A stretch of 57,253 nucleotides of DNA from the IMG/VR virus record IMGVR_UViG_3300046352_000133, positions 1 through 57,253 of that record; one strand, given 5' to 3'. Origin of the DNA: a virus. Made by a program: the position numbers and the translations under genes. Shown here in pieces: positions 3,759 to 55,722 of the stretch. The notes under the pieces were generated by a model. That model worked only from the letters and a program-made list of their open reading frames with translations. It was not told the origin of the DNA and did no database searches. The stretch's first letter is position 1. Each line of letters begins with the position of its first letter.

Positions 3759-5462
3759 ATGATTCAATTAGGGATTTCAGCTTTCTATCATGATTCAGCA
3801 GCTTCAATAGTAATAGATGGTAGAGTTATATGTGCAATAGAAGAAGAGAAGTTGTCAGGCATAAAGCATGACAACTCTTTTCCATTTAAGGCAATTGCTT
3901 GGTGTTTAAGCTACGCAAATATAACAATCGATGATGTTACTATGGTGTGTTGGTATGAGAACCCAGATTTGAAGTATGATAGGGTAAAACATACATTGGG
4001 TAAGAGGTGGATTCGTAATTTTAAGACTTGGTTTAAGTTTAAAAAAGAATTTAACGCAACAGAAGGCAATTTATCCCAATTTTTAGATAAAAACATCGGT
4101 TTTAGGGGTAAATTATACAAAGTTAAACACCATTTATCACATTTAGCACTATCTTTCTATACATCACCATATGATGATGCTATCGGGGTGTCTATTGATG
4201 GGGTGGGTGAATGGGATACTATTTCCATTGCAAAGTGTGATATTGGGGGTATTAGAGAGGTAAAATCGGTATATTTTCCCAATTCTTTGGGATTGGTGTA
4301 TTCAACTATAACTGCATATTTGGGATTCAAACCCAATGAAGGAGAATATAAGGTAATGGGGTTAGCTCCCTACGGAACTCCTAAAAACTACGAACACGTT
4401 TTTGATAAATTCACTAAATTAGGTGGAGATGATATTGTTAGTATAGACCAAAAGTATTTTACTTGGCAATATTCTAATACTGATATGTTTACTATGGATT
4501 TAGTAGACTTAATTGGGTTTGAACCAAGAACGCCAGATTCGGAAATAGAACTACATCATATGGAGTTAGCATCGGCTCTTCAAACTTGGTATGAAAAGTG
4601 TTTTTACTATTTAATCAACGTTTCAACCGAATACATTGATAGTAAGAATTTAGTATTAGGTGGTGGGTGTGCATATAATGGAACTGCTAATGGTAAGATA
4701 AAACAAAACACATCTATAAAGGATGTGTGGATTCCGTATGCTCCATCTGATGCAGGTTCTGCAATTGGTGCGTGTTTATATGTTTGGCATGATTGTTTAG
4801 GGCATCATAAAAAAAGAGGAGGTGATAACCAATCACCATATTTAGGACCTGAGTTTAGTGAAGAATATATTTTGGATATTATAAAAAAATCCAATAACTT
4901 AATGGTCGATATTATCGAAGATGAAGACGATTTATGTAGAATTACTGCTAATATTATAAATAATGGAAAAATCGTTGGTTGGTTTCAAGATAGAACTGAA
5001 TTTGGTGCAAGAGGGTTAGGTAATCGTTCTATATTAGGTAATCCACATATATCAGATATTAGAGATAGAATAAATAAAGTTGTAAAGAAAAGAGAAATGT
5101 TTAGACCATTTGCTCCATCTGTAACTTTTGAAGATTATGCAAAATACTTTGATTCAGAAGGAGAAGTGCCATATATGAATCAAGTTGTTAAAGTTACTGG
5201 ATATAAAGATATACCATCTGTAACACACATTGACCGTTCAGCAAGAATACATACGGTTAGAAGAGAACAAAACCCATTATATTATAAACTCTTAAAAGAA
5301 TTTGAAAAAATAAGTGGAACTCCTATATTATTAAATACATCTTTTAATTTAAAAGGACATACTACAACTAACGACCCACATAAAGCAATTTGGACATTTG
5401 AAAATTGTGATATGGATTATTTGGTTATGGGAAACTGTATAATCAGTAAATTAAAGAAATAA
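3759..5462 (+). CDS. carbamoyltransferase (NodU/CmcH family)
   Basis: 567 residues, the usual length of NodU/CmcH/TobZ O-carbamoyltransferases, which use carbamoyl phosphate and ATP to carbamoylate a hydroxyl group. The N-terminal ASKHA domain begins GISAFYHDSAAS (residues 5-16) and contains the HHLSH metal site (124-128) and SIDGVGEWDT. GGGCAYNG and the C-terminal domain WFQDRTEFGARGLGNRS and REMFRPFAPS follow. Substrate is not evident: a sugar made by the downstream island or a hydroxymethylated DNA base are both possible. It follows gp55 by 4 bases and precedes the virion genes. Confidence 0.93.
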   Translation: MIQLGISAFYHDSAASIVIDGRVICAIEEEKLSGIKHDNSFPFKAIAWCLSYANITIDDVTMVCWYENPDLKYDRVKHTLGKRWIRNFKTWFKFKKEFNATEGNLSQFLDKNIGFRGKLYKVKHHLSHLALSFYTSPYDDAIGVSIDGVGEWDTISIAKCDIGGIREVKSVYFPNSLGLVYSTITAYLGFKPNEGEYKVMGLAPYGTPKNYEHVFDKFTKLGGDDIVSIDQKYFTWQYSNTDMFTMDLVDLIGFEPRTPDSEIELHHMELASALQTWYEKCFYYLINVSTEYIDSKNLVLGGGCAYNGTANGKIKQNTSIKDVWIPYAPSDAGSAIGACLYVWHDCLGHHKKRGGDNQSPYLGPEFSEEYILDIIKKSNNLMVDIIEDEDDLCRITANIINNGKIVGWFQDRTEFGARGLGNRSILGNPHISDIRDRINKVVKKREMFRPFAPSVTFEDYAKYFDSEGEVPYMNQVVKVTGYKDIPSVTHIDRSARIHTVRREQNPLYYKLLKEFEKISGTPILLNTSFNLKGHTTTNDPHKAIWTFENCDMDYLVMGNCIISKLKK

Positions 5463-23188: not shown

Positions 23189-24130
23189 GTGTTGAATAGT
23201 ACAGATAAAAATAAAGTAACAAATGCGTTGTCTACATCGTTAGGTAGTTATTCCGTATTGCGGGGTAATGAGTTGGCATTTTACTGCCCTTTCTGTAATC
23301 ACCATAAACAAAAACTTCAAGTCAATTTAGAATCACAAAAATGGCATTGTTGGACGTGTAATAGTGGTGGTAAGAAACTCACATCCTTATTAAAGAAGTT
23401 AGATGTTGATAGAAAAACTATTTCTATGGTTAGGGAAATCTACGGAGATTCCAACTACAATCCACAAACGGAGGATGCTGACACAAAGGTATTTATTTCA
23501 TTACCAAAAGAATTTATTTCATTAGTAGAAAAGCCAAAAGGTTTTAATCCTGAATATAAGAATGCATTGCATTATCTTACAGAAAGAGGAATTACTATGA
23601 AGCAGATTGTTAAGTATAATATAGGTTATTGTAAAGAAGGTTTATATAGTAGAAGAGTAATTATACCATCTTACAATTGCGATGGGCAATTAAATTACTT
23701 TGTTTCTCGTTCGTATTATCCAGAAGAGAAAATGAAATATAAAAACCCACCAATCAGTAAGAATGTGATTTGTTTAGAATCTCAAATAGATTGGAATGAA
23801 CCTATTATATTATGTGAGGGTGTGTTTGATGCAATTACAATCAGAAGAAATGCAATTCCACTATTAGGTAAGTTTCCATCAAAGTTGTTGATTGAAAAAA
23901 TCTTTATGAGTGGTGTTAGTGATATTGTTATTTCATTAGATAATGATGCTAAAACAGAAGCATTGAGAGTATCGGAGTATCTTCGTAAGCAAGGTATAAA
24001 TGTTAGGTTTATGGATTTAAAAGATAAGGATGCGGCAGATATGGGGTATCAAAAGTTTTATGAGGAGTTAAATAATACAAAAGAGTTTGGGGAAGAAGAT
24101 TTGTTATTAAGCAAGATTAGTAGTTTATGA
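23189..24130 (+). CDS. DNA primase (zinc-ribbon plus Toprim)
   Basis: 313 residues from a GTG start placed directly after the promoter. An N-terminal CHC2-like zinc ribbon (YCPFCNHH and WHCWTCNSGGK, about 31-58) binds the template. The Toprim domain holds IILCEGVFDAI (catalytic Glu) and VISLDNDAK (Asp-x-Asp), residues about 207-255. This is the gp61-type primase that makes RNA primers for the lagging strand together with a gp41 helicase not in this window. It overlaps the recombination nuclease gene by 4 bases (ATGA). Confidence 0.88.
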   Translation: MLNSTDKNKVTNALSTSLGSYSVLRGNELAFYCPFCNHHKQKLQVNLESQKWHCWTCNSGGKKLTSLLKKLDVDRKTISMVREIYGDSNYNPQTEDADTKVFISLPKEFISLVEKPKGFNPEYKNALHYLTERGITMKQIVKYNIGYCKEGLYSRRVIIPSYNCDGQLNYFVSRSYYPEEKMKYKNPPISKNVICLESQIDWNEPIILCEGVFDAITIRRNAIPLLGKFPSKLLIEKIFMSGVSDIVISLDNDAKTEALRVSEYLRKQGINVRFMDLKDKDAADMGYQKFYEELNNTKEFGEEDLLLSKISSL

Positions 24131-27100
24131 AATTAAAAAAGATTTACCACATTGCCGATGTGCATATCCGTAATGTGAAAAGACACAATGAGTATCGTCA
24201 AGTATTTGAAAAGATGTTTGATGAAATTCGTAAAAGAGGAACTGATGATTCTATTATTTATTTAGCAGGAGATATTGCTCACGCTAAATTAGAAATGTCT
24301 CCTGAATTACTAAAAGAAATTAGTTGGTTATTTACAGAGTGTTCTAAACTATGTGATACTATCCTTATTACAGGTAATCACGATTGTAATATGAATAATT
24401 TGGATAGATTGGATGTTCTTACTCCAATTGTAGAGGCATTAAACCTACCAAACTTTCATTATTTAAGAGATACACAAGTTTACTCTATTGGTGGAGTAGA
24501 TTTTGGTGTATTCTCTATATTTGATAATAAAAACAATTGGCCAAAAGCAGATACTTTATTTGGAAACAAAAAGATTGCTTTATTTCACGGACCAGTTGAT
24601 AATTCCCAAACAGATATTGGGTATGTGGTATCTTCACGTCATTTTACAACTGAAATGTTTGATGGTTATGATTTAGCACTATTGGGTGATATTCATAAAC
24701 GACAAGAGATGATTTCTCCTAAAGGGTGTAAGATTGCTTACGCGGGTTCATTGGTTCAACAAAACTTTGGTGAAACTTTGGATAAACATGGCTTCCTTGT
24801 TTGGGATTTGGATACAATGAGTTATGAAGGAGTTGATATTCAAAACGATTATGGATATTATACATTAGATGTTGATAATGGGGTTGTTCCGATTGTTAAT
24901 AATATGCCAGTAAAACCTCGTTTAAGAGTTCGTTTATCTAATACAGATACTGCGGATACTAAAAAGGTAATAACTGAAATTAAAATGAGATATGGTGTTG
25001 ATGATTTTACAATTATCAGAACAGACTCACTTGCCAAATCCAAAACAGGAGATAGAGATAATAAATTAGATTTTGAAGATGTATCGGATGTAAATTATCA
25101 GAACTCACTATTGAAAGAATATGTTGAGAGAATGATGCCGTTTACAACACCTGAAGATATTGAAGGATTGTATGAAATAAATCAAGATATAAATAGTAGA
25201 ATCATTCACGATGATATTCAAAGGAATATCAATTGGAAACCTATTAAATTTACATTCTCAAATATGTTTTCTTATGGTGAGAACAATAAAATTGATTTTA
25301 CCAAAGTAGGTGGGTTGATGGGATTATTTGCACCAAATGCATCTGGTAAATCATCTTTATTTGATGCAGTATCATTCTGTTTATATGATAAGTGTAGTAG
25401 GGCATTCAAAGCATCTAATATTCTAAACAATCGTAAACAAGATTTTGATTGTCAATTACATTTCCAAGTTAATGGTATAGATTATCATATTAAAAGAACT
25501 GCCAAAACAATTAACAAAGGAAAGAATGTTAAAGTTGATGTGCAGTTTTGGAGAGAGGATGATGGGAGAACTACATTATTAAACGGAACAGAAAGAAGAG
25601 ATACGAATCAAATCATAGAACAATATGTAGGTAAGTATGAAGATTTTGTTCTAACCGCTCTTTCATTGCAAGGTAATAACTCAATCTTTATTGATAAATC
25701 ACAATCAGAAAGAAAAGATTTATTAGCACAATTTATGGGATTGAATGTATTTGATAAATTGTATGAAACTGCAACTGAAGATATTAAAGAAGTTTCTGTA
25801 TTGATTAAAAACTTTAAGAAAACCGATTTTACAACAGAACTTGCTGAAAAAGGAATAGAATTAAAAGATAAGAAAAACGAACTTAAAGAATTAGAAAAAT
25901 CCTTAAAACTTAAATCGGATGATGTAATTGATTTGGGAGAAAGGATTATTGGGTTAAGTACTCAATTAGTTCCAATGGATGGTAATCTAAATATAGATGA
26001 ATTAAATACAAATAAATCTAAATTAGAAACTACATTAAATACTTACACATCTTCATTTGAAACAAAAAAAGGTACTATTACCGATTATAATAACTTAGTT
26101 GGGGAAGTTTCTCAATCAATGGAAAATACTAAAAAGTTTTTCATTTCGGAAGAAGAGTATATTGATGTTGAAGAAGCACACTCTAATTATGTTCAAGCAG
26201 AAAAAGATTTTAGTGAAGCAGATACTAAACACCAATTATTAAAACAAAAGATTCAATCTATTAAAGATAAGATTGCTCATTTGGAAAAGCATGAATATGA
26301 CCCTAATTGTAAGTTCTGTTGTGATAATGTTTTTGTAAAAGATGCATTAAAAGCAAAGGAAGAGTTAGAAGGATTAGAAGATAGTTTGGATTATAGTTTA
26401 GATGATGTAAGTGGTTATCTAAATGTAATAAATATGTTTGAAACATCCAAAGAACAATACAAAAATTTACAAACATTAAAATTAAAATATCAAAAAGGAT
26501 ATTCTACAATAGAAACTGAAAAAGCAGAACTAAACGGATTGACAACTAAAATACAATTGGCACAACACCAATTAGAAGTAGTTGAAGCAAATATTAGTAA
26601 ATACTATGAGAATGAGGAAACGATTAAACGAAATACTCAAATCGAAACTGTAATAAATGGGTTGCAAAGAACCAAAAAAGAAATAGAATTAGAAGTTGTT
26701 GCAGTCAATAAACAAATTAGTAGTTTGAATGGTTCTATTTCTTCAATAGTTGCCTTTGTAGAGGAGATAAAGAGGAAGATGAATGAAGTTAAAGACTTAG
26801 AGGAAAAGAATCGTTTATACACCTACTATTTAGATTCTGTAAAGAGAGATGGGATACCATATGAATTAATTTCTAAAGCTCTACCTGTTATTGAAAATGA
26901 AATAAATAATATTTTAGGACAGGTTGTAGATTTTGGTATTGTAATGGATGTAGATGGTAAATCAATCAATGCTAAAATAGTTTATGATGACCAAGAGTGG
27001 CCATTGGAGATGTGTAGTGGTATGGAGAAATTTGTAAGTGGGTTAGCAATCAGAGTTGCTCTTATTAACATATGTAACTTACCCCGTCCAAACTTCTTAG

Positions 27101-27285
27101 TAATTGATGAAGGATTTGGTACATTGGATAGTGATAACTTATCATCCCTATTTATGATGATGCAATATTTAAAGACACAGTTTGACTTTATTTGGATGAT
27201 TTCTCACTTAGAACAAATGAGAGATATTGTAGATGGATTAATTGAAATTAAAAAAGAAAACGGATTTAGTAAAATTGATTTTTAA
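24127..27285 (+). CDS. 46/47: one-piece gp47-gp46 (SbcD-SbcC, Mre11-Rad50-like) nuclease
   Basis: 1052 residues that join what are two T4 proteins. Residues 1-340 are the Mre11/gp47 phosphoesterase: DVH (11-13), GD (48-49), GNHD (83-86), His154 and GDIH (187-190). Residues from 372 are the Rad50/gp46 ATPase: a Walker A APNASGKS (402-409) with Ala for the first Gly, a long coiled coil, a CxxC zinc hook (Cys728, Cys731), signature LEMCSGMEKFVSG (about 960) and Walker B NFLVIDEGFGTLD (about 988-1000). It resects double-strand breaks for recombination-dependent replication. No frameshift or stop separates the halves. Confidence 0.93.
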   Translation: MKLKKIYHIADVHIRNVKRHNEYRQVFEKMFDEIRKRGTDDSIIYLAGDIAHAKLEMSPELLKEISWLFTECSKLCDTILITGNHDCNMNNLDRLDVLTPIVEALNLPNFHYLRDTQVYSIGGVDFGVFSIFDNKNNWPKADTLFGNKKIALFHGPVDNSQTDIGYVVSSRHFTTEMFDGYDLALLGDIHKRQEMISPKGCKIAYAGSLVQQNFGETLDKHGFLVWDLDTMSYEGVDIQNDYGYYTLDVDNGVVPIVNNMPVKPRLRVRLSNTDTADTKKVITEIKMRYGVDDFTIIRTDSLAKSKTGDRDNKLDFEDVSDVNYQNSLLKEYVERMMPFTTPEDIEGLYEINQDINSRIIHDDIQRNINWKPIKFTFSNMFSYGENNKIDFTKVGGLMGLFAPNASGKSSLFDAVSFCLYDKCSRAFKASNILNNRKQDFDCQLHFQVNGIDYHIKRTAKTINKGKNVKVDVQFWREDDGRTTLLNGTERRDTNQIIEQYVGKYEDFVLTALSLQGNNSIFIDKSQSERKDLLAQFMGLNVFDKLYETATEDIKEVSVLIKNFKKTDFTTELAEKGIELKDKKNELKELEKSLKLKSDDVIDLGERIIGLSTQLVPMDGNLNIDELNTNKSKLETTLNTYTSSFETKKGTITDYNNLVGEVSQSMENTKKFFISEEEYIDVEEAHSNYVQAEKDFSEADTKHQLLKQKIQSIKDKIAHLEKHEYDPNCKFCCDNVFVKDALKAKEELEGLEDSLDYSLDDVSGYLNVINMFETSKEQYKNLQTLKLKYQKGYSTIETEKAELNGLTTKIQLAQHQLEVVEANISKYYENEETIKRNTQIETVINGLQRTKKEIELEVVAVNKQISSLNGSISSIVAFVEEIKRKMNEVKDLEEKNRLYTYYLDSVKRDGIPYELISKALPVIENEINNILGQVVDFGIVMDVDGKSINAKIVYDDQEWPLEMCSGMEKFVSGLAIRVALINICNLPRPNFLVIDEGFGTLDSDNLSSLFMMMQYLKTQFDFIWMISHLEQMRDIVDGLIEIKKENGFSKIDF

Positions 27286-39272: not shown

Positions 39273-40031
39273 ATGCTACAAGACTTAATATACATAAAGA
39301 ATACTCTAACAAATAATATTGAATTTAATGAGTACCAGGAACAAGAAGAAATACCAATCCCTTACAGATGGTCTCACGGAGCTACTGATACTCATTTAGG
39401 AGATGGTTTAATTATCTATTCTCTTATTCAGTATATGAGAGCAAAAGTTTGCGTTTGTTTAGGTAGTGGTGGGGGGTTTGTACCTAGACTAATGACACAG
39501 GCAAGAATAGATTTACACAGGCAACATATATTCGAAGGTAATGATGATTTAAATTGGGGAGATATTGGATGCACTTATGTAGTTGATGCTATGAATGGTA
39601 TTGGTGGTAAGGTAGATTGGTTCAAAGAAGAATCATTTTTCAGAAGAACATTTCATCCTCGTATTTTAGGAACTACAACAGAGGAAGCTTTTCATAACCA
39701 CTTTGTATTAAATGATATTAAAATTGATTACTTACATATAGATGCAGGACATAGCTATGAAAATGTTAAAGAAGATTTTGAATTATATTCCCAACTCCTA
39801 TCCCCAAATGGAATTATTTCTATTCACGATACTGACCCTAATTTTGCGGATAGTTACTTAGTTACAAACGAAGTTAAAGATAGAAACGACCATGAAGATT
39901 GGAATGGTCCTATTCAGTTTGTAAAAGAATTAAAAGATAATCCGAAATGGGAAACATTTGATTTGTTTAACTTTGGAATAGTAAAAAATAAACCATCATC
40001 AACAGGTCTTACATTAGTTAAAAGAAAATGA
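39273..40031 (+). CDS. class I SAM-dependent methyltransferase
   Basis: 252 residues. CVCLGSGGGFVPRLM (60-74) is the SAM-binding motif I; IDYLHIDAGHSYENVKEDF (about 150-168) and SPNGIISIHDTDP match motifs of the Methyltransf_24 type enzymes, many of which O-methylate sugars. His-Asp residues in DAGHSY and IHDTD could bind a metal. It opens a sub-operon behind its own host-type promoter and overlaps the following GT gene by 4 bases. Likely methylates a sugar hydroxyl made in this island (inference). Confidence 0.82.
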   Translation: MLQDLIYIKNTLTNNIEFNEYQEQEEIPIPYRWSHGATDTHLGDGLIIYSLIQYMRAKVCVCLGSGGGFVPRLMTQARIDLHRQHIFEGNDDLNWGDIGCTYVVDAMNGIGGKVDWFKEESFFRRTFHPRILGTTTEEAFHNHFVLNDIKIDYLHIDAGHSYENVKEDFELYSQLLSPNGIISIHDTDPNFADSYLVTNEVKDRNDHEDWNGPIQFVKELKDNPKWETFDLFNFGIVKNKPSSTGLTLVKRK

Positions 40032-40876
40032 TTAGATTAGTTACAGTAACGGGTTCTAGAACAACAACATTAAAACATATGTTAAACCATTATACAGATA
40101 TGGTTGATGAAATGTATATTGTTGTATATGATTGGGAAGAGCAATCCAATTTAGCAGAGGTTCAAAATATTGTATCCGAATTCCGAAATGCTAAAATTGT
40201 AAAAACTGTAATTGAAGAAAAATACAATTGGGAAAAAGTAACCCAATTATATAACGAAGTTAAACTAACTCACCCAAACGATTGGTGGGTAATATCAGAT
40301 GATGATGAGTTTCACTCTTATTCATATTCACTTAAATCAATTATATGCGATTGCGATATGAACGGATGGGATATGGTTAGAGGTGGATTCGTAGATAGAA
40401 TTGGTATAGACGGAGATATGGTTGAACTATTGGATACGGATGATATATTTGAAAAGTTTCCATATGCTGGTTTTTTTAGACATCCATTAAGTGGAGCAAA
40501 CCCTAATAAGATTTGTATCGCAAAAGGATATGTTGAAATTACAAACGGGCAACATTATGCAAAGATAGATGGCCATACGACTTGGAAATGGCAAGGTTGG
40601 AATCATCCATTGATTGCACCAATTGATAAATACAATGTGCAAGTTCATCATTTTAAATGGGATAGCACCTGTGGAAAAAGAATTAGAGCAGTTGCAAATA
40701 TACAAAAAGATTACTCTTATTCGGAAGAATATAGAAAAATGTACAGAGAATTAGCAAAGTATAGATTTAAATTACCATTAGATGATGAAAGGTTTGGGTT
40801 TGAATTATCCCCAACTTATCATTATTTGGGATATGAAAAATGGGAGCAACTAATTAAAAAAATAATATCCATATAA
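40028..40876 (+). CDS. glycosyltransferase-like protein, GT2/GT92 type
   Basis: 282 residues. MIRLVTVTGSRTTTLKHMLN, then EMYIVVYDW (28-36) and WWVISDDDEFH with Asp91-Asp93, the layout of GT-A enzymes of the GT2/GT92 type. A His-rich C-terminal part (VQVHHFKW) resembles the metal-binding VHHF motif of this group. Sugar and acceptor unknown. Confidence 0.78.
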   Translation: MIRLVTVTGSRTTTLKHMLNHYTDMVDEMYIVVYDWEEQSNLAEVQNIVSEFRNAKIVKTVIEEKYNWEKVTQLYNEVKLTHPNDWWVISDDDEFHSYSYSLKSIICDCDMNGWDMVRGGFVDRIGIDGDMVELLDTDDIFEKFPYAGFFRHPLSGANPNKICIAKGYVEITNGQHYAKIDGHTTWKWQGWNHPLIAPIDKYNVQVHHFKWDSTCGKRIRAVANIQKDYSYSEEYRKMYRELAKYRFKLPLDDERFGFELSPTYHYLGYEKWEQLIKKIISI

Positions 40877-40924: not shown

Positions 40925-41113
40925 ATGACAGAAGAAGAATTATCATTAGAAAAAAGAAAAGTAAAAGCATTAGAAAAGATTGCAACTACAATGGATGCAC
41001 TTACCGTTTGGTTTGAAGAAATTGAAAAAGATGAGTGGGGTGATAGAATACAATGGTATTTAGCTGAATTTTTAAAAACAACGCAGCCAAAAGACCCAAC
41101 AATTGATGGATAA
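40925..41113 (+). CDS. small acidic conserved phage protein
   Basis: 62 residues, helical: EKRKVKALEKIATTMDALTVW then WFEEIEKDEWGDRIQWYLAEF. I recall short proteins with DALxxWFEEI and DRIQWYLxEF in marine T4-like phages, always unannotated. It is the first gene after a host-type promoter and overlaps the GT7 gene downstream. Confidence 0.68.
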   Translation: MTEEELSLEKRKVKALEKIATTMDALTVWFEEIEKDEWGDRIQWYLAEFLKTTQPKDPTIDG

Positions 41114-42404
41114 AAAATTAGGAATAATTGTTCCTTATAGAAATCGTTTTGAACATCTTGAAGAATTTAAACAATCAATAGTTAAATATCTTAATGATAA
41201 TGGTTATACAAATTATACAATCATTATTGTTGAACAAGATGATGCAAAGTTGTTTAATCGTGGAATGCTACTTAATATTGGATTTAAGGAATCAAAAAAA
41301 CTTAAATGTGATTATGTAGTATTCCACGATATTGATATGCTACCAATTGATGTAGATTATTCTTTTTCAGATGTGCCTATACATTTGGCAACTGATAATA
41401 TACCTTTTGAATCTTACTTTGGAGGGATGGCATTATTTCCCTCACAGATATTCGAACAAATAAATGGCTTTTCTAATTTATATTGGGGTTGGGGATTTGA
41501 AGATGATGATTTGAGATATAGATGTGTAAAAAATAATGTATCTTTTGAAAAATATATAGTACCACAAACCACAGAATCAAAATTACCAATCTTTAATGGA
41601 GTTGATGCATATGCAACAATTTCAAATATTATAAATTACAATAGAAGTTTTAAAATAAAATTAGATATTAATTTAGATAGAGTTGTTTATGATGTAGATA
41701 AGCAATTTGATATATTTCCTATTTTATCAATAAAAGGTTACGATTTTAAACTTTTTTATAATTCTTTTAATAGATTTTATTTGCAACTTTTTGATAAAAA
41801 AGGTAATTATTACGATGTTTATTCTGATATTGTATCTACATCACATAATACTATAAAAATTGAATATGATAGAAATGAGAACATAATTAATTTTTTAGTA
41901 AATGAAAAATTAAATACTATCTATTTTTCAAATAGCATATATAATTATTCTAATGTAGATAAAATTATAATTGGTTCGGATGATGAAAAAAAAGATTTTT
42001 TTAAAGGAAGTATAAATGAATTTTTATTAGAACAAAACGATGAAATAAAGATACATTATAAAAATTATAATATTAAAAATTATTACTTTACTGATATTTC
42101 GGGTAATAAAAACAATGGTGAATTATTTAATGTTTATTTAGATTATTTTAAAGATTTTAAAAATTATTATTCATATGTGCCATTTAGAAGAAATAGTAAA
42201 TTATTAAAATTAAAACATGATGACTGTGGATTTAATGATGGACGATGGAGAGATGATAATAGTAGATGGAATCAGTTGAGATATAATAATGAAGTTCAAA
42301 ACGGATATAGAGATGATATAGAAGATGGATTATCTACATTAAAGTATCAGCTTTATGCAAAAATAAAAGAAGATAAAATAACTCATTTAAATGTTGGGAT
42401 ATGA
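41106..42404 (+). CDS. GT7 (beta-1,4-galactosyltransferase-like) enzyme with inserted LamG domain
   Basis: 432 residues from ATG 41106 (a TTG three bases earlier is less likely). The GT7 donor half is clear: PYRNRFEHL (10-18), LFNRGMLLNIGF (49-60), FHDIDM (73-78, metal) and WGWGFEDDDLRYRC (127-140). A beta-rich concanavalin/LamG-like domain follows (about 168-330). The protein then returns to GT7 sequence: EDGLSTLKYQL near the C-terminus equals the SDGLNSLxYxV of animal beta4GalT. So the lectin-like domain sits inside the catalytic domain. The next gene has the same architecture. Confidence 0.88.
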   Translation: MDKKLGIIVPYRNRFEHLEEFKQSIVKYLNDNGYTNYTIIIVEQDDAKLFNRGMLLNIGFKESKKLKCDYVVFHDIDMLPIDVDYSFSDVPIHLATDNIPFESYFGGMALFPSQIFEQINGFSNLYWGWGFEDDDLRYRCVKNNVSFEKYIVPQTTESKLPIFNGVDAYATISNIINYNRSFKIKLDINLDRVVYDVDKQFDIFPILSIKGYDFKLFYNSFNRFYLQLFDKKGNYYDVYSDIVSTSHNTIKIEYDRNENIINFLVNEKLNTIYFSNSIYNYSNVDKIIIGSDDEKKDFFKGSINEFLLEQNDEIKIHYKNYNIKNYYFTDISGNKNNGELFNVYLDYFKDFKNYYSYVPFRRNSKLLKLKHDDCGFNDGRWRDDNSRWNQLRYNNEVQNGYRDDIEDGLSTLKYQLYAKIKEDKITHLNVGI

Positions 42405-43807
42405 AATTAGGTGTATGTGTTCCGTATAGAAACAGAGAGGAGCACTTAAAGGAGTTTGTACCGATTGTATCAAAGTTTTTAGAATCAAAAGATATTGATT
42501 TTAAAATATACTTTGCCCATCAAACTGATGACAAACTATTTAATAGAGGCGCAATGAAAAACATTGCTGCTAAACACGCATTTGAAGATGGTTGTGATTA
42601 CATCGTATGGCACGATATAGATATGGTTCCAGAGGATGACACTTGCGATTATTCGTTTCCTAATGATAACCCCCAACACATTGCAGTTCGTATCTCACAA
42701 TCCGATTATCAACTAAAATATGAAGAATACTTTGGAGGTGCGGTTCTATTCTCAAAAGAGCAAGTAGAACGAACAAACGGATACTCTAATGATTATTGGG
42801 ATTGGGGTATGGAAGATGATGATTTGTTTTGGAGATGTGTAAAAGAAGGATATGCAAACAAAACTAAATTAGATTACAATGAAGAGCAAGTTGTAGCATA
42901 TTTTAATGGTGTAGATTCTAAAATTGAATTCAAACCATCCAGAGAACAAAGAGCATGTTTATCGGATTCACATACCGTTTCTATATTAGTAAAAGCAGAC
43001 CAACAGATAGAAAAAGTTCCTATTTGGTTGATTGGTGATTCTGAAAGACAATTTGTAGAGTACCCAATATTCAGAAAGCCAGGTTACGATTGGGGTTTAT
43101 CATTTAACAACAGTAGAGCATATACAATGCAACTTTGGGATAGAATGAAAAATCATATATACCAATGGATTAAGAGATATGAAAACCAATGGACTTGGGT
43201 TACGATGGCAGTTGATGCTGAAACTAAAAAAATACATTTCTACTTAAATGGTAGAGAAAGTGATGCAAGATTGGGAACAGGAACACAATCTCCTTTTACT
43301 TACGAAGAACCATTAAAAAGATACGGAACGGAGCCGTTTTATGTTGGGTATTCAAACTCACCAAACGAATCATTTTTTAAAGGAGGAATTGCATCAATTG
43401 CAATGTGGAATAGGCGTTTAACTCCTGATGAAATAAAAAACATACACACCGAATTTCCAAATGATGGGTTAGTATTAGACCTTTTTACTATGGGATTGGA
43501 TTTTGGAGAATCTACAAATATAGAATTTAAAAAAGAAAATATAGAAATCCCACACACCATATTACCACATAGAATAAATGGTAAATTTAGATGTTTGCCT
43601 CACCAAACGGAGGGGTTAATAAATGAGGGTGGAATTGATAAATGGGCAAAGGGAGAAACAACTGCAAAAAATGAAAGAAGATATATATTAGAAATGCAGC
43701 AGGATAAAATTGATTACAAATCCGATGGCATAAATTCAGTTAGTTATCAGTTGGTATCCGTTGATACGATTGATGGAAAACATCAAATGATAAATGTAAA
43801 ATTATAG
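42401..43807 (+). CDS. GT7 (beta-1,4-galactosyltransferase-like) enzyme with inserted LamG domain, second copy
   Basis: 468 residues, paralogue of the preceding gene. GT7 motifs: VPYRNREEHL (7-16), LFNRGAMKNIA (46-56), WHDIDMVP (70-77), YWDWGMEDDDLFWRC (132-146). The LamG domain (about 168-365) is better kept here: HTVSILVKAD, WTWVTMAVDAETKKIHFYLN, GGIASIAMWNRRLTPDEI. From about 423 the GT7 C-terminus resumes: NERRYILEMQQ and KSDGINSVSYQLVSV, matching the end of beta4GalT. It probably transfers galactose or GalNAc, with the lectin domain holding the acceptor glycan. Overlaps its twin by 4 bases. Confidence 0.9.
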   Translation: MKLGVCVPYRNREEHLKEFVPIVSKFLESKDIDFKIYFAHQTDDKLFNRGAMKNIAAKHAFEDGCDYIVWHDIDMVPEDDTCDYSFPNDNPQHIAVRISQSDYQLKYEEYFGGAVLFSKEQVERTNGYSNDYWDWGMEDDDLFWRCVKEGYANKTKLDYNEEQVVAYFNGVDSKIEFKPSREQRACLSDSHTVSILVKADQQIEKVPIWLIGDSERQFVEYPIFRKPGYDWGLSFNNSRAYTMQLWDRMKNHIYQWIKRYENQWTWVTMAVDAETKKIHFYLNGRESDARLGTGTQSPFTYEEPLKRYGTEPFYVGYSNSPNESFFKGGIASIAMWNRRLTPDEIKNIHTEFPNDGLVLDLFTMGLDFGESTNIEFKKENIEIPHTILPHRINGKFRCLPHQTEGLINEGGIDKWAKGETTAKNERRYILEMQQDKIDYKSDGINSVSYQLVSVDTIDGKHQMINVKL

Positions 43808-43809
43808 TT

Positions 43810-45225
43810 ATGGCAGAAGAAAAAACATATTCGGAAAACCCGATATATTTACAGGTAAAAGATGATTTAGATAGTGTAGGTCCTGGTATGTGTTTAGCAA
43901 AATGGACACAGGTTACATTACAATTACAAAATGGACACAACCACTCTTGCCACCACCCTACAACTCACAAAATTTCAGAAGCGGAAATAGCAAGAAATCC
44001 ATCTGCATTACATAATACAAGACATAAAAAACTTCGTAGAAAAGAAATGTTGCAAGGTGCAAGGCCTACGGAGTGTGATTATTGTTGGAAGGTGGAAGAT
44101 AATTCAGACCGTTTTTCTGATAGAATATTTAAGTCGGGTGAAAGTTGGTCTTGGGATTATAAAGAAGAAATATTTAATTCAGATTGGAGAGAAGACTATA
44201 CCCCAAAATATGTAGAAGTTGCATTTTCTAATGCATGTAATTTTAAATGCTCTTATTGTGGACCTGCATATAGTTCTAAGTGGGTAGAAGAAATTGAAAA
44301 ATATGGTGGATACCCTACAACAGATAATTTTAATTCTAATGAGTGGTTAAAAACAGAAAACAAATTTCCTATTCTACATAGTGAATATAATCCATATATT
44401 GAAGCATTTTGGAAATGGTGGCCTGATTTGTATAGAGAGTTGCATACATTCAGAATTACAGGTGGAGAACCTTTATTATCAAAAGATACTTGGGGAGTAT
44501 TAGATTATATATTAGAACACCCTAATCCAAATAGAGAATTAAAATTGGCAATTAATTCTAACTTAGGTGTTCCAGATAAGTTAATTGATAGGCTAATTGA
44601 AAAAATTAAAAGATTAGAAGATGAAGGTCGGGTGAAAGAACTTATAATTTTTACATCAACAGATGGTTGGGGTAAACAAGTTGAATATGTTAGAACCGGT
44701 ATGGAATTTAATAAATTTTGGGATAATGTAAACAAAATATTGGCTGCATCAAATAGGACGAATGTAACAGTTATGTCTACATACAATGCATTAAGTGTAT
44801 TTAGTTATCCAAAATTAATTCAAGAAATATATTCATTAAAAGATAGTTTTGCAAGTACCGATAGATATTGGAACTCAGCAGTATTTTTGGATTCATCTTA
44901 TTTAAGACATCCACAACATCAAACTGTTCAAGTTTTACCCCATCAGTTTTCTAATAACATATTGGACCAATCTAAATTAATTACATATTACGCAGCACCA
45001 TCTTTTAGTCCCAAACATATTGGATATTCGGATGTTGAAGTTCAAAAAGTAAAAAGAATTTATGATTGGATGGTTTCACCGCAAGATGCATCAGAACAAA
45101 TGAAAAATAGGTACAACTTTTATAAATACTTTACGGAGCATGATAAAAGAAGAGGATTGAATTTTTGCAAAACATTTCCTGAATTAGAAGAATTTTATAA
45201 CTTTTGTGGAACAATACAGATATGA
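43810..45225 (+). CDS. twitch-type radical SAM enzyme
   Basis: 471 residues. The 4Fe-4S/SAM site is Cys143-x3-Cys147-x2-Cys150 in SNACNFKCSYCGP, followed by RITGGEPLL. N-terminal cysteines (CHHP, ECDYCWKVED) could hold an auxiliary cluster, as in the 'twitch domain' radical SAM proteins found in marine T4-like phages. The product is unknown for the whole phage family. In this island, radical dehydration, epimerisation or deoxygenation of a sugar is plausible. Overlaps the LamG gene by 4 bases. Confidence 0.87.
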   Translation: MAEEKTYSENPIYLQVKDDLDSVGPGMCLAKWTQVTLQLQNGHNHSCHHPTTHKISEAEIARNPSALHNTRHKKLRRKEMLQGARPTECDYCWKVEDNSDRFSDRIFKSGESWSWDYKEEIFNSDWREDYTPKYVEVAFSNACNFKCSYCGPAYSSKWVEEIEKYGGYPTTDNFNSNEWLKTENKFPILHSEYNPYIEAFWKWWPDLYRELHTFRITGGEPLLSKDTWGVLDYILEHPNPNRELKLAINSNLGVPDKLIDRLIEKIKRLEDEGRVKELIIFTSTDGWGKQVEYVRTGMEFNKFWDNVNKILAASNRTNVTVMSTYNALSVFSYPKLIQEIYSLKDSFASTDRYWNSAVFLDSSYLRHPQHQTVQVLPHQFSNNILDQSKLITYYAAPSFSPKHIGYSDVEVQKVKRIYDWMVSPQDASEQMKNRYNFYKYFTEHDKRRGLNFCKTFPELEEFYNFCGTIQI

Positions 45226-45971
45226 GTTTAAGAGTAGATAAAAATAATATATATTTTATATTACCAGAAAGTAGATATTCCGTTTCTAATAAAATAGATG
45301 GATATATGGAAGAAGATTTTACTTTGCATATTACTGCAAAATTATTTCCAGAAACCATAACGAATACTGAATCATTTTTAATAGCTAGAAATGGAATGCA
45401 TAGTGGTGTTTCCACATTTAAAGATGAACACAACATTGTAAATATTATGTTTACATATTGGTTTAATGATAAAAATGGTAATCCAAAAGTAAAACAAATA
45501 ACATATAAAGTACCTGATTTGTTACTTAACGGGTTTAACAGATACACTATGATTTGTGACCATAATAACGAAAAAAAAATTAGTTGTTATGTAAATGATG
45601 AAATTGTTGGTGAAATGTTATATGGGGATGATGTAAAACAAACTTATGAAAACGGATTTTATTGGTTTGGTTGTGGAAGTATGATTGGTCCAGAAGAACA
45701 TAGAGCATTTGGTGTTTTTGAATATAGACTTTCTTTTGTTTCAAACAAAAATCTTTCATTGCAAGAATTAAAAGATTTTACTGGTAGTTACAAAAGTAAA
45801 TACTCAGAAGTAATTTTTGGTGATTTGCGTAGATTAAACAATGATTGCCCTTATATAGAAAATTTTGCATTTGTATGTGATTTTGAACATTGCAATAGAT
45901 ACAAAGTTTGGGATTTAAGTTTTAGTGGAAATTACCCACAATTTTATATAAAAGATAATATATATTTCTAA
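45222..45971 (+). CDS. stand-alone LamG/concanavalin-like protein
   Basis: 249 residues from ATG 45222, which overlaps the previous stop as ATGA; an upstream TTG at 45204 is unlikely. Beta-sandwich features: EEDFTLHITAKLFPE, NRYTMICDHNNEKKISCYVN and FGVFEYRLSFVSNKNLSLQEL follow the strand pattern of LamG domains (the last resembles the 'RLWNRALSxxEI' edge strand). It has no signal peptide. It may be a carbohydrate-recognition partner for the island's transferases or a leftover of another GT7-LamG gene. Confidence 0.7.
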   Translation: MSLRVDKNNIYFILPESRYSVSNKIDGYMEEDFTLHITAKLFPETITNTESFLIARNGMHSGVSTFKDEHNIVNIMFTYWFNDKNGNPKVKQITYKVPDLLLNGFNRYTMICDHNNEKKISCYVNDEIVGEMLYGDDVKQTYENGFYWFGCGSMIGPEEHRAFGVFEYRLSFVSNKNLSLQELKDFTGSYKSKYSEVIFGDLRRLNNDCPYIENFAFVCDFEHCNRYKVWDLSFSGNYPQFYIKDNIYF

Positions 45972-46952: not shown

Positions 46953-47489
46953 ATGAGTTCAAATTGGAAAGAGTTTGAAATAACTCCATCAAAGAAATTC
47001 CGAAACGAAGTAGAAACATACACACCATCAATTTATAGAGAATACAGAGGTGAGATATTTACAACATTTCATTCAGAGGAACATCCTGTAATGTTAAAAC
47101 TTGCACCATATGTTTCAGTACATGGGAGATTCTCTCGTTCTTATAAAGGAGTATTGAGAGGATTACACTATGATACTAAAACTTGGAAGTTAGTTCAAGC
47201 AGTAGTTGGAGATATATACCTCATTGTTTTGGATGTAAGAGAAGATTCTCCTACTTATGGAGATTGGGAATCATTCATTATATCTGAACGTAACAGACAA
47301 CAGGTATTAGTTCCTCCTGGGTTCGCAAATGGTCACTTTGCACTTACTGATTGTATGTTTCATTATAATTTATTTTACGATGGACAGTATGTGGATGCAA
47401 ATGAGCAAGGTGTAATCAAATGGAATGACCCCGAGTTTCAAATGGAATGGCCTAATAATCACCCAATTTTACAAAAAAGAGATAGATGA
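46953..47489 (+). CDS. rmlC: dTDP-4-dehydrorhamnose 3,5-epimerase-like (RmlC)
   Basis: 178 residues, the normal RmlC length. GVLRGLHYD with His72 (the catalytic base), KLVQAVVGDIYLIVLDVRED, YGDWESFIIS and VPPGFANGHFAL mark the RmlC cupin. It epimerises C3 and/or C5 of a 4-keto-6-deoxy sugar nucleotide. RmlA, B and D are not next to it; the flanking SDRs or host enzymes may supply them. Overlaps the TPP-enzyme gene by 4 bases. Confidence 0.92.
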   Translation: MSSNWKEFEITPSKKFRNEVETYTPSIYREYRGEIFTTFHSEEHPVMLKLAPYVSVHGRFSRSYKGVLRGLHYDTKTWKLVQAVVGDIYLIVLDVREDSPTYGDWESFIISERNRQQVLVPPGFANGHFALTDCMFHYNLFYDGQYVDANEQGVIKWNDPEFQMEWPNNHPILQKRDR

Positions 47490-48121
47490 TACAAAACATA
47501 AAAAAATACAAAACTTTAGATGAGGTAGATACCAACCTCACATCACAAGATTTAATCGATTTTGAAAATGGAATAGTAGAGCAATGGGAAGGTGGTAAAA
47601 TACGAGGACCTATACATTTATCAAATGGAAATGAAGAGCAACTAATAGAGATATTTAAAAGAATATCTGCAAACGATTGGGTGTTTTCAACTTGGAGGTC
47701 TCACTATCATGCATTATTACATGGTATTTCACCTGAATGGATTACAAACGAAATATTAGATGGCAAATCTATCACTCTTTGTAATTTAGATGAGAAGTTT
47801 TATTCATCCGCAATTGTAGGTGGAACGTTATCTATTGCATTGGGTGTAGCAATGGGATTAAAACAAAAAGGAAGTGATGAGAAAGTTTGGTGTTTTATAG
47901 GAGATATGTCTTTTGAAAGTGGTATATTCTATGAAGTTCACAAATATGCAAGAAACTTTGATTTACCTATTTATTTTGTTATTGAAGATAATGATGTTTC
48001 AACTTACACTCCAACGGAAGCAACTTGGAGTACAAAAAGAGAAATACCAAAAGATGTAATTTACTACAAATATAAATCTAAATATCCACACTACGGAAGT
48101 GGTAAATGGGTAGTTTTTTAA
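47486..48121 (+). CDS. thiamine diphosphate enzyme, E1-alpha-like subunit
   Basis: 211 residues. STWRSHYHALLHG (68-80) and VGGTLSIALGVAMGL (111-125) are typical of E1-alpha subunits of 2-oxo acid/acetoin dehydrogenases, and FIGDMSFESG with Asn169 (GD, 29 residues, N) is the Mg-diphosphate motif. It stops about 40 residues after that motif, far shorter than the 320-400 of metabolic E1-alpha, and lacks the phosphorylation-loop region. The matching beta-like half is encoded 7 kb away at 55180. Such pairs can attach two-carbon branches to sugars (AviB1/AviB2 of avilamycin synthesis). Confidence 0.85.
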   Translation: MIQNIKKYKTLDEVDTNLTSQDLIDFENGIVEQWEGGKIRGPIHLSNGNEEQLIEIFKRISANDWVFSTWRSHYHALLHGISPEWITNEILDGKSITLCNLDEKFYSSAIVGGTLSIALGVAMGLKQKGSDEKVWCFIGDMSFESGIFYEVHKYARNFDLPIYFVIEDNDVSTYTPTEATWSTKREIPKDVIYYKYKSKYPHYGSGKWVVF

Positions 48122-54187: not shown

Positions 54188-55180
54188 ATGAAAAAAACAG
54201 ACAAAATTTTAGTTACGGGTGCAAGTGGATTTATTGGTTCACATTTATTACGGTTGTTACACCTAAAAGGTTATACAAATTTAAGAGCAACATCTTATAG
54301 TAGAAATTTAAGACATGATTTTGATGGTAGCAGAGATATTCCTTTTTTTAAAGGTAATTTACAGGATGCTAAATTCTGTCAAGAAGTCTCAGAAGGAGTT
54401 GATGTAGTATTTCATTGTGCAGCAAACACATCAAATGCATTAGATACTAAATTCAATCCATTATTACACGTTACACCAAACGTAGAAATGAATGTAAATT
54501 TAATGGAACAAAGTTGGAAAAACAAAGTTCGTAAATTTTTATTTATTTCATCAAATACAACTTATCCAGATATGGGTACTGAATTTTGTACCGAAGATAT
54601 TGACGTTCATGCAACTCCAATGTTACCTGTTTACAAAGCAGTTGGTGGTATGAAGAGATATGGTGAAATGCTATGTGATTTCTTTTCTAATCAGATTCAC
54701 GAACCGATGCAATGTTTGATTGTTAGACCTTCAAACGCATTTGGACCTAATGATAAGTTTGATTTTGAAAAGTGCCACGTTACTCCTGCAAACATTCGTA
54801 AAGTAGCAGATGGGTTGAATCCAATTCCAGTTTGGGGTGATGGTACGGAAGTAAGAGATTTATTGCATGTTGAAGATATGGCAGATGGTTTTATCTTTGT
54901 AGCAGAGAATAACGATACATATGACATCTTTAATGTATGTTATGGTGAAGGATTTACAGTAAATGAAACACTTGAAACAATTAAAGAATTAGATGGTAAT
55001 ACCAATCCAATTGAATATGTAAATAATAAAGCACCAATGATTCCTATCCGATTATTATCTTCTAAAAAGATTAATGCATTAGGATGGAAACCAAAAAGAA
55101 ATCTAAAAGAAGCTTTAAAAGAAACCATTGAGTGGTATAAAGCACATAAAAGAGAATTTAACCCAAATTCAAAACCATAA
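54188..55180 (+). CDS. extended SDR, GDP-fucose synthase-like, with altered active site
   Basis: 330 residues. ILVTGASGFIGSHLL (7-21), FHCAANTSNA, FISSNTTYP (119-127) and VRPSNAFGPND are standard extended-SDR landmarks. The active-site Lys156 is in GGMKRYGEM, yet the residue four before it is Val152; a Tyr149 lies three residues further back. Some SDR groups with a 'VGxMKRYxE' pattern exist in my memory, so this may be a family trait. The stop overlaps the start of the TPP beta-like gene. Confidence 0.87.
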   Translation: MKKTDKILVTGASGFIGSHLLRLLHLKGYTNLRATSYSRNLRHDFDGSRDIPFFKGNLQDAKFCQEVSEGVDVVFHCAANTSNALDTKFNPLLHVTPNVEMNVNLMEQSWKNKVRKFLFISSNTTYPDMGTEFCTEDIDVHATPMLPVYKAVGGMKRYGEMLCDFFSNQIHEPMQCLIVRPSNAFGPNDKFDFEKCHVTPANIRKVADGLNPIPVWGDGTEVRDLLHVEDMADGFIFVAENNDTYDIFNVCYGEGFTVNETLETIKELDGNTNPIEYVNNKAPMIPIRLLSSKKINALGWKPKRNLKEALKETIEWYKAHKREFNPNSKP

Positions 55181-55722
55181 TGAGCACACCTCAATTTTCT
55201 CCATACAAAGATGAACTAACAAAAGCAATGACATTTCTTGCTCAAAAAGAAGATACAATCTTTATTGGACAACAAATAGTTTATGCGGGAAACCCTATGA
55301 GTACAACTTTGGGGGAAGTTCCAAAAGAAAAAATGATTGAAGTTCCTGTGATGGAAGAAACGCAAATGGGAATGAGTTTAGGAATGGCAATGACGGGTAA
55401 AACCGTCATTACCTTTTATCCTCGTTGGGATTTTTTAGTATCGGCAACAAACCAATTGGTAAACCACGCTGATAAGTTTGAAAATATGACAGGTAAAAAG
55501 GCAAACATCATTATTAGAGTTGGTGTTGGTAGTACAAACCCATTAGACCCTGGTATCCAACATAGAAACAATTATACAAAAGAATTTAAATCTATCTTAC
55601 AATTTACAAAAATTTGGGAATTAAAAAATCCAAATGATATTTATAAGATATACACAGATGCGTATAACGAAGGTGGGGTTCACATTATAGTAGAATGGCC
55701 TGGATTATACTACGAAAACTAA
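55180..55722 (+). CDS. thiamine diphosphate enzyme, E1-beta-like subunit
   Basis: 180 residues. VMEETQMGMSLGMAMTGK (57-74) aligns with the E1-beta block that carries the glutamate needed to activate the cofactor, here Glu59; YPRWDFLVSATNQLVNHADK matches the 'FxDFxxxAxDQIxNxAAK' helix, and GIQHRNNY the HSQ region. Only the pyrimidine-binding domain is present; the C-terminal transketolase domain of full-length E1-beta is absent. It must pair with the alpha-like subunit encoded at 47486 to bind cofactor between them. Last gene of the island. Confidence 0.85.
   Translation: MSTPQFSPYKDELTKAMTFLAQKEDTIFIGQQIVYAGNPMSTTLGEVPKEKMIEVPVMEETQMGMSLGMAMTGKTVITFYPRWDFLVSATNQLVNHADKFENMTGKKANIIIRVGVGSTNPLDPGIQHRNNYTKEFKSILQFTKIWELKNPNDIYKIYTDAYNEGGVHIIVEWPGLYYEN

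Follow-up and report, generated by a model that had tools for sequence, protein, structure and literature searches.

A LamG domain nested in the catalytic fold of paired GT7-type glycosyltransferases encoded by a conserved cassette of uncultured phages

The stretch of DNA analysed here (the window) is a viral record of 57,253 bp. It carries a cassette with the gene order methyltransferase, GT2-like glycosyltransferase candidate, 62-aa protein, P1 (A clade), P2 (B clade) and twitch-domain radical SAM protein, followed by a stand-alone LamG-like gene (Table 1). The open reading frame of P1 spans 41103-42404, with a TTG at 41103 and an ATG at 41106. The coordinates, the reading frames and the 4-base overlap of P1 and P2 reported by the first-pass annotation were correct when checked against the open reading frames; the 62-aa ORF (MTEEELSLEKRKVKALEKIATTMDALTVWFEEIEKDEWGDRIQWYLAEFLKTTQPKDPTIDG), the third paralog of relatives and the cassette were not mentioned there. 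Numbers of single conserved residues are those of P2.

Table 1. Features of the cassette and of the adjoining LamG-like gene in the window.
Feature	Coordinates	Strand	Evidence
Methyltransferase (Methyltransf_24), first cassette gene	39273..40031	+	Pfam E 6e-11; best-hit homologue in 151/159 viral loci
GT2-like (GT-A type) glycosyltransferase candidate	40028..40876	+	Sub-threshold Glyco_tranf_2_4; homologue in 154/159 loci
62-aa conserved protein	40925..41113	+	Between the GT2-like gene and P1; overlaps the P1 start by 8 bases
P1 (A clade), GT7 enzyme with nested LamG: GT7 N ~1-150, LamG ~157-352, GT7 C ~360-433	41106..42404	+	Pfam, AlphaFold model, beta4GalT1 superposition
P2 (B clade), GT7 enzyme with nested LamG: GT7 N ~1-155, LamG ~158-386, GT7 C ~387-468	42401..43807	+	Pfam, AlphaFold model, beta4GalT1 superposition
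P2 inserted LamG (residues 158-386)	42872..43558	+	Pfam, structure alignment, empty site in bacterial homologues
Twitch-domain radical SAM protein	43810..45225	+	NCBIfam NF033640, 341.5 bits (cut-off 170); homologue in 153/159 loci
Stand-alone LamG-like protein, without GT7 part	45204..45971	+	Family LamG profile matches 30/59 blastp relatives

The 5' neighbours of the cassette encode a Peptidase_S74 fibre-type protein and a baseplate protein. On the 3' side lie the LamG-only gene, epimerase/dehydratases, an RmlC-type epimerase and a subunit of a TPP enzyme; the sugar-pathway neighbours comprise an enzyme of the dTDP-sugar 3,5-epimerase type, three SDR epimerase/dehydratases, and GT2 and Gly_transf_sug glycosyltransferases. 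The E1-type TPP subunit (47486-48121) and a transketolase pyrimidine-domain protein (55180-55722) belong to the same cluster and are possibly two halves of one TPP enzyme. The LamG-only product itself had no Pfam match, and LamG-only genes recurred 3' of the GT7-LamG pair in many loci. A T4 late promoter before P1 was considered and rejected: the motif TATAAATA was absent from the gap in the window and was present in only 7 of 154 gaps. Scans for sigma-70-type promoters and for terminators gave no excess over shuffled sequences.

Both proteins were assigned to GT7 by Pfam, with bit scores of 67.9 (Glyco_transf_7N, cut-off 27) and 59.5 (Glyco_transf_7C, cut-off 23) for P1 and of 70.4 and 70.1 for P2. 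Their best relatives in the PDB were B4GALT1 and B4GALT7 (phmmer, E 7e-31 and 1e-25); a second, C-terminal segment around SDGLNSLTYQ was matched weakly in this search and was by itself not significant. Between the two GT7 parts, residues 188-346 of P2 matched Laminin_G_3 (E 1e-11, 45.5 bits, cut-off 27.6). The corresponding domain of P1 is too divergent to reach the Pfam Laminin_G_3 threshold; it was detected with a family profile (which includes P1) and, independently, in the structure model. P1 and P2 share 31% identity from end to end.

AlphaFold models built from an alignment of relatives had a mean pLDDT of 94.1 and a pTM of 0.90 for P1, and of 93.6 and 0.87 for P2. When superposed on beta4GalT1 (1tvy, VIA-align), P2 1-468 aligned with residues 180-398 (Z 27.8, rmsd 2.0, 215 residues) and P1 1-433 gave Z 25.8 and rmsd 2.2 over 208 residues. 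In both models a GT-A fold matching beta4GalT extends across the two end segments; since the match aligns only about 210 residues yet reaches the last residue, the C-terminal segment is part of the GT7 fold. The middle domain is in each case a beta-sandwich that aligns with solved LamG/pentraxin structures: P2 162-388 aligned separately with the LamG of PAPP-A (Z 21) and with SAP (Z 18), and P1 ~158-352 with a laminin LG module (Z 16.6; all VIA-align). The superposition proposed as a check by the first-pass annotation thus placed the C-terminal segment within the GT7 fold and a beta-sandwich in the middle.

The insertion site was located by alignment with bacterial GT7 proteins that lack LamG and are only about 220 aa long (among them L168 from Parachlamydiaceae and L169 from Halieaceae), which have the same N- and C-terminal blocks (at most 47% identity in the N-terminal part) and in which the site is empty. 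The LamG domain lies between the helix that follows WGxEDDD and the R-x-G-x-[FY]-x-x-L-x-H strand bearing the predicted metal-ligand His, and the insert has a median length of 241 residues, given the cut points that we set. In the model of P2 the chain enters the insert through a long strand at 152-169 and leaves it through another at 375-389. The claim that the LamG is nested rather than appended therefore held on three counts: the joint superposition of the end segments on beta4GalT1/beta4GalT7, the beta-sandwich in the middle and the empty bacterial site. The conservation of C-terminal residues across the family (P389, N424, G443, R391 and H401, see below) points the same way. The position of a Y-D-F...D-x-S-G-x-x-N-x-G motif after an FNG motif prompted us to consider a circularly permuted LamG. 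This was ruled out by structure alignment, in which the insert was collinear with pentraxins, PAPP-A and a Bacteroidota carbohydrate-binding protein, and by ordinary Bacteroidota LamG domains, which matched over model positions 160-383.

The catalytic set is intact. D72, D74, W135, E138, D139 and D141 were found in 155 of 155 A and B copies and H401 in 154 of 155; across 177 non-redundant copies P389, N424 and G443 were invariant, and R391 and H401 nearly so. The DxD metal motif, WGxEDDD and the metal-ligand His are accordingly conserved, H401 being assigned as ligand by alignment only. R49, W135 and C398 align with Arg228, Trp314 and Met344 of beta4GalT1, three positions at which mutants exist in solved structures (according to the structure titles). 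The Met344 position is not conserved (Cys in the B clade, variable in the A clade), a point against the reading favoured below. Tyr110, a position that hardly varies among the A and B copies, aligns with the donor-selecting Tyr289 of beta4GalT1.

Relatives were collected with pattern scans of IMG/VR, from which 159 loci on about 137 distinct contigs (judged by contig names) were kept; the scans yielded 227 and 177 relatives, and the locus and contig counts are a lower bound. Among 355 GT7 hits, 348 had the full-length nested size (400-510 aa), the others being contig-end cuts, run-together frames or shorter pieces. Two GT7-LamG copies were found in 123 sources, three in 35 and one in four, the copies mostly being arranged in tandem, and homologues of A and B were present in 158 of the 159 loci. 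Both GT7 families were detected in all of 50 sampled relatives and Laminin_G_3 in 44 of the 50 (Pfam, E 0.001), so that the nested layout is not due to chance.

The bacteriophages carrying the pair form a large group that is uncultured and aquatic. The T4-type capsid protein Gp23 was encoded on 22 of 34 tested contigs, some of which reach 288 kb. For the baseplate wedge protein of the window, the nearest counterparts were in Microcystis phage Mel-JY01 (42%) and in Flavobacterium phages (40%), so a Bacteroidota host is no more than plausible. No homologues of P1, P2, the methyltransferase, the GT2-like protein or the 62-aa protein were found in isolate phages by tblastn, a search in which the carbamoyltransferase was recovered as a positive control; the 62-aa protein likewise had no match in PHROGs or INPHARED.

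Nested copies were also present in genome bins, where they mostly adjoin the same cassette genes; most of these are probably misbinned phage contigs. In the phylum of a Flavobacteriales bin (395 genomes), full-length matches were found only in the phage-like contigs of that bin. The surroundings of the nested GT7-LamG gene at L166 (5941-13407) are cellular, with flanking genes for an SNF2 helicase, a kinase, a GT2 protein, an ABC transporter and an HlyD-like protein; among 168 genomes of that phylum the protein occurred in two only, the sources of L166 and L165. Given this context, the layout is mainly, not exclusively, viral.

In a quick tree of the GT7 parts, one branch (support 85) separated the LamG-free bacterial proteins from the LamG-containing sequences. 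The first copies (A) and the last copies (B) grouped largely apart from each other, which bears out the earlier proposal that P1 and P2 arose by duplication. The simplest history consistent with the split and with the A and B groups is one insertion, an old duplication and joint inheritance. Most simply, the LamG would have been inserted once, in a common ancestor, with only moderate branch support (85); the A/B duplication is older than the radiation of these phages.

The nested fold, the insertion site, the intact catalytic set, the pairing and the cassette were computed directly. On this basis we favour a reading to which we assign a probability of roughly 0.55: P1 and P2 would be active, metal-dependent, inverting GT7 enzymes with a UDP-Gal-type donor that act one after the other, their LamG domains binding the acceptor, and the cassette would build a glycan. 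As judged from sequence and fold, both would be beta4GalT-type enzymes of GT-A fold in which a complete LamG/pentraxin-fold domain was inserted at the tip of a beta-hairpin, just before the predicted metal-ligand His. Duplication would have given the adjacent paralogs A and B, which are probably co-translated and have long been conserved as a pair. The donor of both is probably UDP-Gal or a closely related sugar nucleotide, because nearly every A and B copy has Tyr at the position of Tyr289, the residue that favours UDP-Gal in beta4GalT1; some members of the GT7 family, however, differ in donor and acceptor. The LamG may bind the growing acceptor glycan, in which case we propose that it sets acceptor specificity; it could also face away from the acceptor site. 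The product would be a decorated glycan on a surface structure of the phage or the host, and the target could be the virion or a host surface polysaccharide. Parallels exist for both, namely the virions reported as the target in mycobacteriophages (PMC12619734, citing Freeman 2023) and the host surface polysaccharide proposed as the target of cyanophage clusters (PMC7824862).

Alternatively, the same enzymes could use the LamG as a docking module for a protein (a virion protein, the 62-aa protein or a partner enzyme) that guides them to a protein target, an explanation which we regard as possible, at odds of about one in four. LamG domains are often protein-binding rather than glycan-binding, and among the nearest solved structures are PAPP-A, neurexin and laminin LG modules, a set in which protein binding is common. 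The 62-aa protein also co-occurs with the A copy: a relative of it accompanies the A-type GT7-LamG gene in nearly every locus that has one, mostly as the gene immediately before it; at L108, A and the 62-aa protein occur without B, and at L077, B occurs with neither A nor the 62-aa protein. The other GT7-bearing sources without the small protein were a cut-off piece of the window and two contig-end loci. Against docking, for jumbo phages LamG has been discussed as a lectin-type module that serves adhesion in tail fibres and elsewhere in the virion (PMC7824862).

It is unlikely that the LamG has no ligand and serves only as a spacer or for oligomerisation, being tolerated because it sits at the tip of a hairpin. 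The insertion point is indeed a hairpin outside the core motifs, and sequence changes faster in the LamG than in the catalytic part, with median pairwise identities of 30.6 (LamG) and 59.4 (N-terminal catalytic part) in the A clade, and of 43.4 and 72.1 in the B clade. At the level of sequence, such divergence is expected of a specificity module and equally of a neutral spacer; it fits the former and does not prove it. However, no LamG-free GT7 copy was seen among the approximately 350 copies read in viral loci, and many polar and aromatic positions never vary in the LamG of the B clade (N236, N237, S238, Y254, W256, W264 and N283).

Some loci (L022, L032, L051 and L066 among them) have three GT7-LamG copies. 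In the third, upstream copy, R49 is replaced by Y and R427 by I in 19 of 19 non-redundant copies, and the E138, D139 and H401 positions are altered in many; given these changes it is probably not an active enzyme, and is likely a pseudoenzyme. The window has no such degenerate copy. In a more elaborate and rather speculative scheme, two lectin-nested GT7 enzymes would read and extend a glycan sequentially while the 62-aa partner steers them, and in some phages the dead third paralog would regulate or scaffold; the control of beta4GalT1 by alpha-lactalbumin offers a loose functional parallel. That P1 and P2 are themselves catalytically dead and act as lectins is very improbable: the third copy lacks part of the catalytic set, but the set is retained almost without exception in clades A and B, which include P1 and P2.

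The likeness to B4GALT1 and B4GALT7 (CAZy GT7) comprises the GT-A fold over both end segments and shared motifs (FNR, HDIDM with the DxD, WGxEDDD, the metal-ligand His, N-x-x-R-[FY] and DGLxxLxY). In contrast, B4GALT1 and B4GALT7 are Golgi membrane proteins without an insert, as the LamG-free bacterial proteins also lack one, whereas P1 and P2 are phage proteins with about 230 additional LamG residues in mid-chain. Laminin_G_3/pentraxin-fold domains have the same fold, and Bacteroidota LamG domains have boundaries equal to those of the insert; unlike the LamG of a fibre or adhesin, that of P1 and P2 lies inside an enzyme fold. Lectin domains tune acceptor choice or activity in GALNT (GT27), GnT-IVa (GT54) and POMGnT1 (PMC9296478), but these enzymes belong to other glycosyltransferase families and their lectin is terminal (C or N) rather than nested. 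Glycosyltransferases are likewise clustered with sugar-nucleotide enzymes in the glycan clusters of cyanophages and jumbo phages (PMC7824862) and around the core glycosyltransferases of moraphages (PMC12619734), the texts of both of which contain neither the word LamG nor the words radical SAM.

No description of a LamG joined with GT7, of a lectin nested in a glycosyltransferase or of the conserved cassette was found in the open-access literature, and the LamG-nested GT7 layout was not found in PHROGs or isolate phages. The statement of the first-pass annotation that no GT7 with this layout has been described stands within these sources. In the lectin-bearing glycosyltransferases known to us, the lectin is terminal. 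The LamG-nested GT7 is a widespread and apparently undescribed form of a known enzyme family, and a lectin nested beside the metal-ligand strand would be a compact natural design for acceptor-guided galactosylation that could be expressed in bacteria. The cassette provides a conserved marker by which these aquatic T4-type phages, a large and uncultured group, can be recognised, and raises the testable question of which glycan these phages build, and on what.

Further observations were made in the loci examined. At positions 322-5594 of L077, four radical SAM proteins related to the twitch-domain protein of the window are encoded in a row upstream of the lone B gene. The window encodes a Nol-like carbamoyltransferase (3759-5462), common in cyanophages, about 36 kb upstream of the GT7 pair. 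A 1052-aa protein (24127-27285) combines Metallophos (5-191) with AAA_23/SMC_N (376-1047), and resembles SbcD and SbcC (T4 gp47 and gp46) fused in one chain.
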